Notes under the pieces: model-generated | Told to the model about the DNA's origin: nothing | Databases searched by the model: none | What the model saw: only the letters and a program-made list of their open reading frames with translations | Translations under genes and position numbers: made by a program | Part shown: in pieces, positions 2,258 to 9,275 of the stretch | Position numbering within the stretch: the stretch's first letter is position 1 | How the letters are laid out: every line of letters starts with the position of its first letter | Source: an uncultured Pelagibacteraceae bacterium | Lineage (GTDB): Bacteria > Pseudomonadota > Alphaproteobacteria > Pelagibacterales > Pelagibacteraceae | NCBI GenBank assembly: GCA_902527635.1 | Contig: CABZPS010000007.1 | Coordinates: 1 to 40,093, forward strand | Direction of reading: 5' to 3' | Length of the DNA stretch: 40,093 nt

Positions 2258-4084
2258 ATGAATAATACTTTTAGAAACATCACTATTATCGCCCATGTTG
2301 ATCATGGCAAAACAACTCTAATCGATAACTTAATGAAGCAAAGTGGTTCATTTAGAGAGAATGAAGTTATAGATGAAAGGTTAATGGACTCTGGAGAGTT
2401 GGAAAAAGAGAGAGGAATTACAATATTGGCTAAACCTGCCTCGATTAATTGGAAGGATACAAGAATAAATATAATTGATACACCTGGTCATAAAGATTTT
2501 GCTGCTGAAGTTGAAAGAGTACTTAGCATGGCAGACGGAGCTTTATTACTTATAGACTCTGCTGAAGGTGTAATGCCTCAAACAAAATTTGTCCTAGCAA
2601 AAGCATTGAAGCAAGGCTTAAAACCAATTGTAGTCATAAATAAACTTGATAAATCTGATCAGAGAGCAAATGAAGTTCTGGATGAAACATTCGATTTATT
2701 CGTAAGTTTAGACGCTAATGAAGAACAGCTAGATTTCCCAGTTTTATATGCCAGCGGAAGATCTGGATGGGCTGATCTTGAAGTAGATGGTCCAAGAGAA
2801 AATCTTAATCCCCTTCTAGATAAAATTGTAGAGCATGTTAAGCCAGCGGAGTTAGATAAATCAAAACCTTTCGCTATGCTTTCTACACTTCTTTATGCTG
2901 ATAGCTTTTTAGGAAGAAGTTTAGTGGGTAGAATTTCACAAGGAACAGCAAAAGCTAATCAAGCTATTAAAGCAATCAATTTAAAAGGAGAAAAAATTGA
3001 TGAAGGTAGATTAACTAAAATTTTTAGATACGAAGGAACCAAAAAAGTTCCAATTGAGGTTGGTGAAGCTGGGGATATTGTGGTGGTTGCGGGTTTAGAA
3101 AAAGCTAACGTTGCAGACACTATTTGTGATCTTGAAGTAAATGAACCAATAAAAGCCACACCGATAGATCCTCCAACTATGTCAATTACAATCACTGTAA
3201 ATACATCTCCTTTGGCTGGCACGGAAGGTAAAAAACTTACAAGTACACAAATTAGAGATCGGTTAGTTCAAGAAGCACAAAATAATGTTGGAATTACATT
3301 CACTGAAAATGAGGGAAATGACTCTTTCGTTGTTAGTGGCCGAGGTGAATTAATGTTGGAAATTTTACTTACTCAAATGAGAAGAGAAGGTTTTGAAATG
3401 ACGGTGAGCCCTCCAAAAGTTCTCTATAAAAAAGATGAAAATGGCAGTAAGCTTGAGCCAATAGAAGAAATTACTATGGATCTTGATGAAGAGCATTCAT
3501 CAAAAATAATCGACTCAATGAATAGAAGAAAAGGTAAATTAATAGAATTAAAAGATACCGGTAAAAGTAAAAAGAGACTTATATTTCATGCACCAACAAG
3601 AGGTTTAATGGGATATGCAAGCAGATTTTTAACACTTACAAAAGGAAATGGTGTCATCAATAGAATTTTTCATAAATATGGTCCATTTGAAGGTGAAATG
3701 GAAGGCAGAAGAAATGGTGCTCTAATTTCTATGGAACAAGGAAAGGCAGTTGCTTTTGCAATCTTTAATTTACAGGCTAGAGGAGAAATGTTTGTAACTC
3801 ATAACGATCCTGTTTATCCAGGAATGATAGTAGGCTTGTCACCTAAACCAGGAGATATGATCATTAATGTTATGAAGGGTAAAAAATTAACTAATATGAG
3901 AACGCAAGGTACTGATGAAAATGTTGTCTTAACTCCAGTAAGAAAAATGTCGATTGCTGAACAACTGAGTATGTTAAATATGGATGAAGCTTTAGAAATA
4001 ACTCCAGTATCCTGTAGATTGAGAAAAGCTATACTTGATCCTCATGAAAGAAAAAGAACTGAAAAATCAGGCGCTGCTGCCTAA
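2258..4084 (+). CDS. typA: Translational GTPase TypA/BipA
   Basis: NITIIAHVDHGKTTLIDNLMKQSG...DERLMDSGELEKERGITILAK...DTPGHKDFAAEVERVL; full length 608 aa. Confidence 0.98.
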   Translation: MNNTFRNITIIAHVDHGKTTLIDNLMKQSGSFRENEVIDERLMDSGELEKERGITILAKPASINWKDTRINIIDTPGHKDFAAEVERVLSMADGALLLIDSAEGVMPQTKFVLAKALKQGLKPIVVINKLDKSDQRANEVLDETFDLFVSLDANEEQLDFPVLYASGRSGWADLEVDGPRENLNPLLDKIVEHVKPAELDKSKPFAMLSTLLYADSFLGRSLVGRISQGTAKANQAIKAINLKGEKIDEGRLTKIFRYEGTKKVPIEVGEAGDIVVVAGLEKANVADTICDLEVNEPIKATPIDPPTMSITITVNTSPLAGTEGKKLTSTQIRDRLVQEAQNNVGITFTENEGNDSFVVSGRGELMLEILLTQMRREGFEMTVSPPKVLYKKDENGSKLEPIEEITMDLDEEHSSKIIDSMNRRKGKLIELKDTGKSKKRLIFHAPTRGLMGYASRFLTLTKGNGVINRIFHKYGPFEGEMEGRRNGALISMEQGKAVAFAIFNLQARGEMFVTHNDPVYPGMIVGLSPKPGDMIINVMKGKKLTNMRTQGTDENVVLTPVRKMSIAEQLSMLNMDEALEITPVSCRLRKAILDPHERKRTEKSGAAA

Positions 4085-4728
4085 TCAAAAATTTTATCAA
4101 CTAAGAACAAACTCAATGCAATACACGGGCCAATACCAAAAGCGAATAAAAGAGTTCCGACACCTACTGTTCCGCCTAAATACCAACCAATACTTACAAC
4201 AGAAATTTCTAAAAAAGCTCTAACAGCTGCCACTGGTAAATTAGTTATTTTTTGTAATCCAATCATTAATCCATCTCTTGGTCCTACACCAAGGTTTGAA
4301 ACTAGATAGATGCCCCCTCCTATTCCAACCATCATTACAGAAATTGCTGCTAGGATTAATTGATTAAAATAATTAGATGGGGTTGGTACAAACTTTATAC
4401 AAAGATCAATCATAAAGGCTATTATTAAAGCATTAGATATTGTACCTATTCCTGGTTTTTGGCCCAGAGGTATCCATAAACTTAAGATAGCAATACTTAC
4501 TAAAAGAGTAATTGTTCCAATACTTAAATTAACATTTAAAGAAATACCTTGAGCTAAAACACTCCACGGAGAGGCACCTGTAAAGGAAACAATTAGTAAC
4601 CCTTCACCAAGACCAAATAACATCAAACCAAAACATAAAAAAAAGAAAGTGGAAAATTTTGGTTTAAAATTATACGGTTTTTCAGAGCTCCAATTTACCT
4701 TTGGTATTTTCTTTATTTTTAAAAACAT
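4081..4728 (-). CDS. YczE/YitT-like multi-pass membrane protein
   Basis: Several hydrophobic segments; GVGPRDGLMIGL motif resembling YczE-like membrane proteins; converges on typA with overlapping stop codons. Confidence 0.7.
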   Translation of the reverse strand: MFLKIKKIPKVNWSSEKPYNFKPKFSTFFFLCFGLMLFGLGEGLLIVSFTGASPWSVLAQGISLNVNLSIGTITLLVSIAILSLWIPLGQKPGIGTISNALIIAFMIDLCIKFVPTPSNYFNQLILAAISVMMVGIGGGIYLVSNLGVGPRDGLMIGLQKITNLPVAAVRAFLEISVVSIGWYLGGTVGVGTLLFAFGIGPCIALSLFLVDKIFD

Positions 4729-4939
4729 CTTAATAAGTTTATTTTATAGTAAGTACAGTCCACTATTAAAATATTCATATAACACAATAACATATAAAAC
4801 CTTACGCTGCCCCTAATTAATTATTTAAAAAATTTTTTATTAATTCTGTGCTTTAAATATTTTATATAATTCTCCAAAAAAAGATAAATAGAGAGTATTT
4901 GAATTTGGGATTTATTTTTTTTATAAAATTATGGAAAAA

Positions 4940-5170
4940 CTAAGTCCTTTTAATCAAATTGATAATATCTGAAACTTTTTTACATTTATTATAATCAGAT
5001 AAATCAATATTTTTTTTAATCTTTTTTAAACTCAAAAAAATATTTACATTTTGTAAGCTATCCCATTGCTCAAAATCTTTAGCTTTTGATGCATCTTTAA
5101 TAAGATTAATATTGACTTTTAAGTTTTTTGATAAAATTTTTTTAATTTGTATTTCAATTTTTTTTTTCAT
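4940..5170 (-). CDS. Stand-alone acyl carrier protein-like protein
   Basis: 76 aa, short helical, EQWDSLQNVNIFLSLKK containing the DSL phosphopantetheine attachment motif; overlaps the upstream ligase ORF. Confidence 0.8.
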   Translation of the reverse strand: MKKKIEIQIKKILSKNLKVNINLIKDASKAKDFEQWDSLQNVNIFLSLKKIKKNIDLSDYNKCKKVSDIINLIKRT

Positions 5171-6965
5171 TTTTTATTACTTTTTTAATATTATTTATTA
5201 TATCAAAGTCTAAAATTGTGCTTAAATCACCAAAAACTTTTAAATTTGGATCTAAAATAATATCCCTAAGTAATCTTCTTAATATTTTGCCACTTTTAGT
5301 TTTTGGTAAATCATTTACAAAATATATTTTCTTAGGAATTGCAAAGGAGCCAAAATTATCCAAAATTTTTTTATTCAATATATTTTGAAACTTTATTTGA
5401 TTAATTTTTTTTTTTTTTAAAACTAAAAAAAGTACTAATTTAAATCCTTCTATTTTATCAGGTATTGCTACACACGCACACTCAACAATATTTTTAATTC
5501 TTAAAGAAATAGACTCAATTTCCTCAGATCCTATTCTGTGACCTCTAATATTAATAACATCATCACTTCTTCCATGAATGTTCAGAATTTTTTTTTTATC
5601 AAAAGACCCTATATCAAATAATTTAAAATATCCCTCATCTGTCCAGTATTTATCCCATGTATCTTTTCCATTAATTACATTTATCATACAACCTGGCCAA
5701 GGATTTTTAATTACTAACTCACCTTGTTTTATTTTTTTTTGTTTAATTAATTGTAGACCATAAATTTTTTTTGGTTTTCCAACTGATCCATGAGGTATAT
5801 TTTTAGGGTAAGTATTAAATCTAGGTGCAGTTATTATTCCGCCTGTTTCTGTTTGAAAATATGTATTCACTATTGATTTTTTGTGATTAAAAACTTTTAT
5901 AAACCATCTTGCAACATCTGGGGCTAAAGGTTCCCCCATAGATCCCAAAGTTTTTATAGAATGTTTTTTTTGCACTAATGTAGGATAGAGCGATCTTGCA
6001 ATTCTAATCAGGGTAACTGGCATATATAAAATTGTTATTTTTATCTCTTCAATTATAGTTTTTAAAACTTCTTTTTGTAAAATCATCATTGGTGATTCTA
6101 AGATTACAGACGTTGCACCAAGACTAAGTGGACCATACAAACCATAAGTGTGACCATTAATCCAACCTGCATCTGACGCTGTTAAAATAACACTATTTTT
6201 ATTAATTCCAAAAAAATTAGAGCAACTATATTTGGTATAAAGTAAATAACCACCAGTAGAATGAATAACTCCTTTTGGCTCTCCTGTGCTTCCTGAGGTG
6301 AATAACGTAAATAATTTTTTATTACTTCTGAAAGAATATTTAATATTTAGTTTTTTAAGCTTATCATCATTTTGAAGTTGTAATGAGTCACAAAAAAAAA
6401 GATTCATTTTTGTTTTTTTTTTCCTAAAAATTAAAATTTTTTCTTTAGATCTTTTGTTATTTCTTAGAAACTTTTTTTTAATATTATTATCATTATCTCT
6501 AGTAATAATTAAATCAGGGTTAAATAATTTAATTCTTGTAGTCATCGCATTTCTTTGAAGATCCTGAAATACTACACTGTGGCAAATACCTAATCTAGTA
6601 CATGAAAACATACTTACAACTGACTCGAAAGAAGCAGATGCATGTATCAGTATTTTTTTTTTGGAATTTATTTTATATTTGTTTTTTAAAATATAACAAA
6701 AACGCTTAACACAATCCAAAAGTTTTTTATATGTAAGTGAAGTTAATCTATTATTAACATCTAAAAAAATTAATGCTGTTTTATTGCCAAAGCCCTTTTT
6801 AATATTATTATCTATACATTCAAAAGATAAATTTAATTTTCCATCCCCATACCATTCTTTAAAATTATTTTTTTTAAAAGTTATAATCTTTTGCGGTTTT
6901 TCAACCCAATCTAATAAACTTACTTTTGACCTCCAAAAACTCTCATAATATTTTTTATTGGTCAT
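5154..6965 (-). CDS. AMP-forming acyl-CoA/acyl-ACP synthetase, acetyl-CoA synthetase family
   Basis: Adenylation motifs FTSGSTGEPKGVIHSTGGYLL, TASDAGWINGHTYGLYGPLSLGA, FQTETGG, GRSDDVINIRGHRIGSEEIES, catalytic Lys motif PKTKSGKILRRLLR. Confidence 0.93.
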   Translation of the reverse strand: MTNKKYYESFWRSKVSLLDWVEKPQKIITFKKNNFKEWYGDGKLNLSFECIDNNIKKGFGNKTALIFLDVNNRLTSLTYKKLLDCVKRFCYILKNKYKINSKKKILIHASASFESVVSMFSCTRLGICHSVVFQDLQRNAMTTRIKLFNPDLIITRDNDNNIKKKFLRNNKRSKEKILIFRKKKTKMNLFFCDSLQLQNDDKLKKLNIKYSFRSNKKLFTLFTSGSTGEPKGVIHSTGGYLLYTKYSCSNFFGINKNSVILTASDAGWINGHTYGLYGPLSLGATSVILESPMMILQKEVLKTIIEEIKITILYMPVTLIRIARSLYPTLVQKKHSIKTLGSMGEPLAPDVARWFIKVFNHKKSIVNTYFQTETGGIITAPRFNTYPKNIPHGSVGKPKKIYGLQLIKQKKIKQGELVIKNPWPGCMINVINGKDTWDKYWTDEGYFKLFDIGSFDKKKILNIHGRSDDVINIRGHRIGSEEIESISLRIKNIVECACVAIPDKIEGFKLVLFLVLKKKKINQIKFQNILNKKILDNFGSFAIPKKIYFVNDLPKTKSGKILRRLLRDIILDPNLKVFGDLSTILDFDIINNIKKVIKNEKKN

Positions 6966-7462
6966 ATTTTTAATTTAATTCTATTGCTATCAAAAAATTT
7001 TTTATTCAAACTATTTTTAGGGATATGTAATAAAGTATATAAATTTTTAACATCATGATTTAATATTTTAATATTTTTAATTTTCTTGAATTCAAAAAAT
7101 ATATATAAAAATAGATGTTCTTTGCCAGATAGTGTTATAGTGGAAATATTCTTGGTATTTTTCATAATAAAATCTAAAAAATTTATAACTAAATATCTGT
7201 AACGTTTTAATGAGCATAAGGTATCTAAATAATAAAAATTAATTTTTTTTTTTTTATAAAAAAAATTTCTTGCCCTTAAACAACAATATAATTTTACAGT
7301 CTTTGAACCTATAAAAAAATGAAGATCATTTGATTTAATTTTATCAATGAACCATTTGTTTTGGCTTCTTAATGAATATTTCCAAAACTTCCTCTTAATT
7401 TTTATAATTTGCTTAATTTCACTATTTGATAATTGAGTAGTTTTTTTTTTTACTATTTTCAT
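6962..7462 (-). CDS. Possible GNAT-fold acyltransferase
   Basis: 166 aa; N-terminal helices then beta-rich segment (FIGSKTVKLYCCLRARNFF...FYYLDTLCSLKRYRYLVINFLDFIMKN) reminiscent of GNAT topology; overlaps the ligase start by 4 nt. Confidence 0.45.
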   Translation of the reverse strand: MKIVKKKTTQLSNSEIKQIIKIKRKFWKYSLRSQNKWFIDKIKSNDLHFFIGSKTVKLYCCLRARNFFYKKKKINFYYLDTLCSLKRYRYLVINFLDFIMKNTKNISTITLSGKEHLFLYIFFEFKKIKNIKILNHDVKNLYTLLHIPKNSLNKKFFDSNRIKLKI

Positions 7463-7621
7463 TTTTTTTTTACAGCTATTGTAAAATTAAGAATGAATTA
7501 ATTTAATTAAAGAGTAAAGTATTTCAAGTAAAATAAATTGATAACAAAAAACAATTAGTCTAAAAACTTAAATAAGTTAATTAAGATGATCAAAAATATT
7601 ATCCATTAAATTAATCTACAA

Positions 7622-8302
7622 ATGAAAAAAATTTCACTAATATTTTTTATTTTTATTATTCCGACTCTCCTCTTGGCACACATGGGGCACTACAATAAAT
7701 ATAACAAAATTGAAATGGAGATCTTTAGAAATGGTGAACTAATTGGATACAATTATTATTTTTTTGAAACAAATGGAGCAGAAACTATTATCACAAATCA
7801 ATTTAAATTTTCTGTTGATCTATTAGGAACTACAATTTTTCAAGTTGAGTCATACGGTGAAGAAAAATATATCAAAGATCAATTGATATCATATAATTCT
7901 AAAACTCTTCAAAATGATAAAGAAAAATTTGTAAATTTAAAATTTAATAAAAATAGTAAAAAATTTGACATTAAAGGCTCTTCATTCAATGGTGAGGCAT
8001 CCATGAATAATGTTATTGGAAATTGGTGGAGTCATAAAATTTTACAAGCAGGATCTCAAATAAGTCCAATATCAGGAAGTATTAAAGAACAGGTTGTTAC
8101 TTTTATAGGAAAAGAAAAAATCGACCTTTATGGAAAAATTTATGATGTTGATCATTTTACACTTAAATCTAAAGATATAAATATTCCAAAAAGTAAACGA
8201 TTAGACTTTGACATTTGGTATGATCAAAAAAATTCAAGAATTTTAAAAGTGTCTTACTCAAGAATGGGAAATTGGGAATACAGATTAAAAAGCTTTGAAT
8301 AA
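7622..8302 (+). CDS. Secreted protein, DUF6134/DUF3108-like
   Basis: N-terminal signal peptide (KKISLIFFIFIIPTLLLAH), then beta-rich domain (MEIFRNGELIGYNYYFFETNG...; LDFDIWYDQKNSRILKVSYSRMGNWEYRL). Confidence 0.6.
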   Translation: MKKISLIFFIFIIPTLLLAHMGHYNKYNKIEMEIFRNGELIGYNYYFFETNGAETIITNQFKFSVDLLGTTIFQVESYGEEKYIKDQLISYNSKTLQNDKEKFVNLKFNKNSKKFDIKGSSFNGEASMNNVIGNWWSHKILQAGSQISPISGSIKEQVVTFIGKEKIDLYGKIYDVDHFTLKSKDINIPKSKRLDFDIWYDQKNSRILKVSYSRMGNWEYRLKSFE

Positions 8303-8303
8303 T

Positions 8304-9275
8304 TTATTTTGAAATTTTTTTATATAAGTCCTGAGCACTTATCCAACCTGACTCTAGTCTTGGTCCTACAAACCAATCAGCACAAACACCTATTTTTTTC
8401 TTTGGATCCCAAAAACTTTTAATTTTTAAAGGTTTTGAGTTAGAAGAATATTTCCAACCATGATTAAGAGAAAAATTGATTGTTGTTTTTTTAATATTTG
8501 AAAGTTCAAAGAACTTATTAATCATAATTATTGAATTCTTTTTCTTATTATTTTTATTTTGATTAATCTTTTTATTTGCCCACTTAAAAGTACTTTGCAG
8601 AGTCCATAAATCATGTTTTGATTTAAATCTTTTTTTCGAATTTTCATTACCAGCCCAGCCGAGGATTGGATCTTCGAAAAGGTAACTGCTACTAGATTTT
8701 TTGTTTTTTTTTATAGCAATCATGGTAGTTATATTTGCATCCATTTTTATTGATTTTTTTACAAAAGTATTATTTATAAATTTTTTAGAAAGTTTTTTTA
8801 ATTGTGGAAAAGGACAGGTCAAAATAATACTTTTAAAAGATCTCAATTTTCCATCAGCAAATGATAAGTGCCAAAGTTTGTTTTTATAATGAATTTTTTT
8901 TAATTCACTTTGATAATTGCACTTAATTTTTTTTAATAAATACTTGCTAATATCATTATTTCCATTTTTACCAATAATTTTAAGATGTTTTTTATCCTCT
9001 TTTTTTTTGGAGTTAAGAAAAACGTGTTTGCCACCCCAAACCTTTAAAATTTTTTTTTTAATTAAATGTTTAGTAAATTTTTTGAAATCTGGGGTTTTTG
9101 GCGAAAAGTATTGAGTACCATGATCAAAGCCTATATTACCTCTTATTCTTTTGAAAGATGCACGACCTCCTGGACCTCTCGCTTTATCAAATAGGATTAC
9201 TGTATTTTTTTTATTAAGAAGATTAGCAATCGTAGCTCCAGAAATACCTGAACCGATTACGCAGAATTCACTCAT
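8304..9275 (-). CDS. FAD-dependent amine-oxidase/renalase-like oxidoreductase
   Basis: N-terminal Rossmann dinucleotide motif VIGSGISGATIANLL, GPGGRASFKR..GFDHGTQYFS typical of renalase-like proteins; C-terminal GPRLESGWISA. Confidence 0.85.
   Translation of the reverse strand: MSEFCVIGSGISGATIANLLNKKNTVILFDKARGPGGRASFKRIRGNIGFDHGTQYFSPKTPDFKKFTKHLIKKKILKVWGGKHVFLNSKKKEDKKHLKIIGKNGNNDISKYLLKKIKCNYQSELKKIHYKNKLWHLSFADGKLRSFKSIILTCPFPQLKKLSKKFINNTFVKKSIKMDANITTMIAIKKNKKSSSSYLFEDPILGWAGNENSKKRFKSKHDLWTLQSTFKWANKKINQNKNNKKKNSIIMINKFFELSNIKKTTINFSLNHGWKYSSNSKPLKIKSFWDPKKKIGVCADWFVGPRLESGWISAQDLYKKISK

Follow-up and report, generated by a model that had tools for sequence, protein, structure and literature searches.

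In the Dlt system (DltA-DltC-DltB-DltD), an adenylating ligase charges a stand-alone carrier, and the resulting thioester feeds a membrane acyltransferase, DltB, which is an MBOAT. Teichoic acid is not expected in the Gram-negative SAR11 cell. In exopolysaccharide clusters, the exosortase-A-associated AMP ligase (TIGR03098) is accompanied by a stand-alone ACP. The AlmEFG system for Vibrio lipid A glycine follows the same logic of ligase, carrier and acyltransferase (PMC3783018), and its use of a non-MBOAT acyltransferase indicates that the acyltransferase is exchangeable in such systems. FAALs form an ACP-dedicated branch of the ANL superfamily which rejects CoA, partly through the lack of the Arg and Lys residues that grip the CoA phosphates (PMC8460268). 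The locus described here resembles Dlt and AlmEFG in the order of steps that its genes suggest. It is unlike Dlt in that its ligase is of the acetyl-CoA synthetase (ACS) type and its partners vary (GNAT, AT3, left-handed beta-helix, AAC(3)). Compared by logic, not sequence, it is unlike AlmEFG in that AlmG is of the LPLAT type and the Alm ligase is described as DltA-like, and it is unlike the FAALs in that these are a fatty-acyl branch with a FAAL-specific helix and bulky plugs. No description of a system with an ACS-type ligase, an ACP and an MBOAT was found in the open-access literature; subscription papers may differ.

The window, by which is meant the whole stretch of DNA analysed (40,093 nucleotides from an uncultured Pelagibacteraceae bacterium), is contig 7 of an 829-kb genome that is approximately 69 % complete. 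Among named organisms, those nearest to it by ligase are Pelagibacteraceae, in keeping with a SAR11-type genome. The features of the window and of the loci compared with it are shown in Table 1. The original prediction of three minus-strand reading frames overlapping head to tail was confirmed, together with their coordinates, from the ORF list and the sequence: a 4-bp ATGA overlap joins the 166-aa gene to the ligase gene, and the 3' end of the ligase gene overlaps the ACP gene by 17 bp. The cassette lies in a segment with a GC content of 22.4 %, against 29.1 % for the window. The spacer between the YczE-like and DUF6134 genes is 50-53 bp long and empty in 29 of the 29 relatives examined, which identifies the cassette as a lineage-specific insertion and an accessory gain. 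The ancestral spacer is still recognisable in the window on the YczE side, and the insertion lies between this remnant and the DUF6134 start. The argument that the genes sit between core genes and that their retention suggests a purpose is not supported by the same 29 relatives, and a retained core operon was rejected on account of the empty site in all of them. No glycan genes were found around the window cassette.

Table 1 Features of the window and of the loci compared with it
Feature	Position or loci	Strand	Basis or remark
GNAT-family gene, 166 aa	6962..7462	-	ORF list and family profile
ACS-type ligase gene, 603 aa, proposed acyl-ACP ligase	5154..6965	-	Pfam, NCBIfam, alignment
Stand-alone ACP gene, 76 aa, WDSL motif	4940..5170	-	Family profile and model
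Inserted segment, 2.9 kb	4729..7621	.	Relatives have 50-53 bp here
Approximate remnant of ancestral YczE-DUF6134 spacer	4729..4775	.	Judged by eye from sequence
YczE-like gene, flank of insertion	4081-4728	-	Divergent to DUF6134
DUF6134 gene, flank of insertion	7622-8302	+	Divergent to YczE-like gene
ACYLTRANSFERASES: MBOAT beside or near ligase-ACP	L077, L081, L083, L087, L088, L090, L091, L093, L097, L094, L099		
AT3 beside or near ligase-ACP	L079, L082, L083, L087, L093, L094, L095		
Hexapeptide proteins beside or near ligase-ACP	L082, L084, L085, L092, L098		
AAC(3)-like protein beside or near ligase-ACP	L086		
60-80 aa protein, example	L062 9606-9848	-	
60-80 aa protein, example	L063 9764-9991	+	
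60-80 aa protein, example	L066 9469-9684	+	
60-80 aa protein, example	L068 188-370	-	

A related locus, L090 (6920-12130), carries the window's backbone (TldD/E, DUF6134, YczE, TypA, GroEL) with a ligase-ACP-MBOAT cassette elsewhere: its YczE-DUF6134 spacer is also 50-53 bp, and the cassette sits between typA and groEL as a second insertion nearby. From its gene order, this stretch of the backbone looks like an insertion hotspot.

The reading favoured here, which we consider probable though by a limited measure, is that the ligase and the ACP are a portable ACS-type module which feeds interchangeable acyltransferases, probably acting on surface glycans. The ligase is a paralogue of acetyl-CoA synthetase; with ATP it would adenylate a short carboxylic acid to acyl-AMP, and the acyl group would then be moved onto the phosphopantetheine arm at Ser38 of the neighbouring ACP, not onto CoA. 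An acyltransferase of a locus-specific type (MBOAT, AT3, left-handed beta-helix or AAC(3)-like) would take the acyl group from the acyl-ACP. In the window, the translationally coupled GNAT is the only candidate transferase in the cassette; it would be the acceptor-side enzyme and would acylate a sugar or another precursor of surface molecules at an amino or hydroxyl group.

The 166-aa protein has no Pfam match, and a single-sequence AlphaFold model of it has a pLDDT of 40.5, too low to interpret. Relatives were found in 16 other genomes of the genus, the weakest being fragments or near the E limit of 0.01. Eight of 12 aligned family members, not including the window protein, match Acetyltransf_10 and Acetyltransf_7, and seven match Acetyltransf_1 (best E 3e-9); a PDB search with the family profile retrieves GNAT structures. 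A profile built from the remaining 11 members recovers the window protein with 74.7 bits (E 8e-23), the highest score among 200 shuffles being 14.8 bits. The protein is, by homology, a member of the GNAT family, and an assignment that had been offered as weak stands through the family while failing from the window protein taken alone. Conservation of the three-gene order, which had been suggested as a check, was not found: the GNAT gene occurs at none of the 29 other ligase loci, and none of the 16 genomes with GNAT relatives is among the genomes that carry this ligase. The GNAT adjoins the ligase only in the window and is not a conserved partner of the ligase-ACP pair. Most of its relatives lie in glycan clusters of the aminosugar and neuB type, as judged from neighbour sequences, and a scan of viral contigs gave no relatives of the family.

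The restriction of this adjacency to the window is one reason to weigh the alternative that survives best, although we regard it as unlikely: that the ligase and ACP are a donor module, the GNAT is a passenger or a decaying gene, and the real acyltransferase has been lost or is encoded elsewhere, perhaps in the approximately 31 % of the genome that is unassembled. A 5-residue deletion right after Arg89 removes from the window protein the acetyl-CoA P-loop (R/Q-x-x-G-x-G/A), which is present in the relatives, often in degenerate form. The nearly invariant Trp125 is lost, and the gene has a GC content of 17.8 %, the lowest among the 38 window ORFs of at least 100 aa. The absent P-loop and the very low GC suggest that the window GNAT may be decaying. 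In addition, no MBOAT was found in the window genome assembly; at this completeness another transferase could be missing from it. Against a passenger, the ORF has the full family length and the ATGA coupling to the ligase, the invariant family residues Trp27, Gln34, Asp46, Tyr59, Asp80, Arg89 and Tyr120 are kept, and loss of the acetyl-CoA loop would be equally compatible with a protein that has turned to acyl-ACP as its donor.

Two minor features of the GNAT genes were recorded. Poly-A runs before and just past the GNAT start codon (window 7440-7475) could slip and shift the frame. A conserved protein of 60-80 aa, with a pattern like 'NxxWMDLLKLAxKxDPKKTAKIM' and no function assigned, often lies near GNAT genes of SAR11 glycan clusters (Table 1).

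The ligase has the domains of the ANL superfamily (Pfam AMP-binding, E 1e-48; AMP-binding_C, E 1e-16; ACAS_N, E 9e-8) and its catalytic residues Asp500, Arg515, Asp517 and Lys609. Acetate--CoA ligase ranks first among NCBIfam families at 435 bits, compared with 113 bits for DltA, which agrees with the original prediction of an ACS-type and not an NRPS-type adenylating enzyme; the ligase is thus not of the DltA type. It falls under the AcsA family cut-offs (TIGR02188, 435 against 657 bits; NF001208, 429 against 725 bits). The TIGR03098 ligase, which is likewise AMP-forming, belongs to a different branch (98 bits against a cut-off of 592). With AcsA the window ligase shares homology over its whole length, including ACAS_N, the adenylation motifs and the conserved lysine loop; it differs in its separate clade, in the loss of the CoA contacts and of Trp413 and Trp414, and in its identity of approximately 33 % to the usual ACS paralogue of the genus (300, then 399 genus genomes searched). 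Orthologues at 48-54 % identity were present in eight of the 399 genus genomes, the window genome included (approximately 2 %).

When 85,000 species genomes were scanned with the alignment of these orthologues, 30 loci were obtained, of which 18 are from Pelagibacteraceae, 10 from Prochlorococcus and one from an actinobacterium, and the last is the probable chimera L105, where a transketolase start runs in frame into a ligase fragment (7821-8699). Exclusion of this contig and addition of the window left 30 usable ligases, which were aligned with 13 ACS of the genus in Salmonella Acs numbering anchored on PDB 2p20. In a maximum-likelihood tree the 30 ligases form one clade apart from the 13 ACS (support 100/100), within which relations are unsure since several branches are long. 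No ligase relatives were found in the scan of viral contigs.

All 30 ligases keep the adenylation residues named above, and all 30 have lost residues that serve CoA. Gly164-Gly165 is replaced in 30/30, mostly by Glu-Asp, and Arg584 in 30/30, by Lys in six. None of the 30 has the DEGxRxGK motif that contains Arg191, the Arg191 and Arg194 columns lying in a gappy stretch where the Arg191 column is Lys in several ligases and Arg in one. The ACS of the genus retain Gly164-Gly165 and Arg191 in 13/13 and Arg584 in 11/13. In the window ligase, Gly164-Gly165 has become Gln-Asp, Arg191 Asn and Arg584 Leu, and Arg194 falls within a deletion. Arg191 and Arg584 are contact residues for the CoA phosphates, and mutation of equivalent residues impairs CoA use (PMC10455477); FAALs, which charge ACP and reject CoA, are likewise without these positive residues (PMC8460268). 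Loss of the CoA-nucleotide contacts with the adenylating residues kept fits charging of the adjacent ACP and not of CoA. The present clade belongs to the ACS branch, with ACAS_N and the pocket positions of a short acid, and from these comparisons it and the FAALs look like cases of parallel loss of CoA use. The acyl pocket has also changed. All 30 ligases have Asn in place of Thr311, Tyr in place of Trp413 and either Phe or Tyr at Trp414, and Val386 is Met or Cys; the window ligase has V310I, T311N, V386M, W413Y and W414F. These differences suggest that the substrate is not plain acetate but another short acid, perhaps a polar one. The usual ACS of the genus (L011-L034) has a substitution of its own, with Asn at the Salmonella Arg526 position (SGHNLG) in 13/13; Arg526 is described as important for Acs catalysis (PMC10455477).

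The window ACP has no Pfam domain, and its NCBIfam ACP matches are weak (best E 1.5e-5). Its model is a four-helix ACP (pLDDT 89), and the top Foldseek matches of the model are ACPs with query TM scores of 0.73-0.86, none of them with E below 0.001 for so short a chain. Asp37-Ser38 is invariant in 19 aligned ACPs (the window and 18 relatives), WDSL occupies positions 36-39, and helix 2 (38-51) begins at Ser38, which is the predicted pantetheine-accepting serine. By sequence profile, the closest ACP of solved structure is 2LML (GmACP3) of Geobacter metallireducens (E 2e-16, the best PDB match), reportedly proposed to act in LPS biosynthesis. The window genome has one gene of the AcpS family, which would be able in principle to make the holo-ACP. 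Apart from the window ACP, a single ACP in this genome scores above the Pfam cut-off.

With the family profile, an ACP gene was recognised at 25 of the 30 loci of the ligase, at 24 of them within 1.5 kb, and the association spans three phyla. Of the five loci where none was recognised, one is cut by a contig end. The same profile found no ACP within 1.5 kb of the usual ACS at 24 control loci (best E 0.12). The ligase and ACP are, judged by gene linkage, a recurrent module, and this linkage together with the missing CoA residues suggests that the ligase charges the ACP; the dedicated pairing, as first proposed, gains support from both.

An ordinary acetyl-CoA synthetase was rejected on the family cut-offs, the CoA contacts and the acyl pocket. 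The broader alternative, an ordinary short-chain acyl-CoA synthetase with the ACP as an unrelated neighbour, is improbable: its best named family is acetate--CoA ligase, though far under the cut-off, and its adenylation residues are intact, but an unrelated neighbour does not agree with the frequency of the ACP at the ligase loci and its absence from those of the genus ACS, nor an ordinary synthetase with the loss of CoA-nucleotide contacts across the clade and a pocket changed in every member.

The favoured reading, a module that feeds interchangeable acyltransferases, draws on the other loci for its acceptor side. MBOAT (PF03062) and AT3 (PF01757) assignments were confirmed for representatives. 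An MBOAT lies near the pair in nine of 19 Pelagibacteraceae loci and two of 10 Prochlorococcus loci, and beside it in, for example, L081, L091, L090 and L097. MBOATs are rare in the genus (6/121 genomes), and three of these six genomes (G001, G058 and G117) carry the ligase family, with the MBOAT of G117 on another contig than the ligase. The system had been set apart from Dlt by a GNAT-like enzyme in place of an MBOAT; with MBOATs among the usual partners, this contrast becomes a local peculiarity of the window, and the system is closer to Dlt than was proposed. The neighbours at other loci (MBOAT, AT3-SGNH, hexapeptide, PEP mutase), not the window itself, point to a surface-glycan target. 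That the pair is instead an acyl-ACP synthetase for fatty-acid salvage or lipid modification is the least probable of the alternatives, and very much so: acyl-ACP ligases of the FAAL type are known for lipid use (PMC8460268) and the smaller Phe or Tyr at Trp414 could make the pocket somewhat larger than that for acetate, but Ile310, Asn311, Met/Cys386 and Tyr413 are as large or larger and would argue against long chains, and the neighbours are MBOAT, AT3-SGNH, hexapeptide and glycan or phosphonate genes, not lipid genes.

A bolder reading is advanced tentatively and seems to us possible but rather doubtful. In it, a new branch of the ACS family gave up CoA to become a short-acyl-ACP ligase, and this ligase and its ACP, a mobile pair of genes carried by both of the most abundant groups of ocean bacteria, plug into at least five unrelated transferase types (MBOAT, AT3, hexapeptide, AAC(3)-like and GNAT) to vary surface chemistry, the window GNAT having shed its acetyl-CoA loop for acyl-ACP. 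If the module works as favoured here, SAR11 and Prochlorococcus would have Dlt- or Alm-like carrier-based acyl activation that arose from another ligase ancestor, their surface acyltransferases of the MBOAT and AT3 types would have a testable acyl source, and a second ANL lineage, beside the FAALs, would have left CoA for ACP. How the surface is decorated plausibly matters for recognition by phages and for grazing, and a scattered two-gene module whose transferases can be swapped would allow this decoration to be varied economically.

Several other loci showed features of their own. PEP mutase genes adjoin ligase-ACP pairs at L082 (5944-7245) and L089 (1011-2303), and the gene content of these two loci makes acyl-decorated phosphonate glycans in SAR11 possible. 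At L139 (3762-5438), an MBOAT follows a small protein that resembles an ACP (E 0.001 by profile, with its serine within 'DIDSFT'), and there is no ligase of the family. In the Prochlorococcus locus L092 (7863-10878), the ligase has a C-terminal extension of approximately 200 aa with no function assigned, and the gene after it encodes a C-terminal AcpS domain with an unassigned N-terminal region; a ligase-ACP fusion was rejected, the extension not being an ACP by profile. An AMP ligase of another kind, paired with an ACP of its own, lies in the SAR11 glycan cluster L058 (7914-9514 and 1834-2061) together with a second ACP-like gene; this ligase-ACP pair is parallel and unrelated to that of the window.
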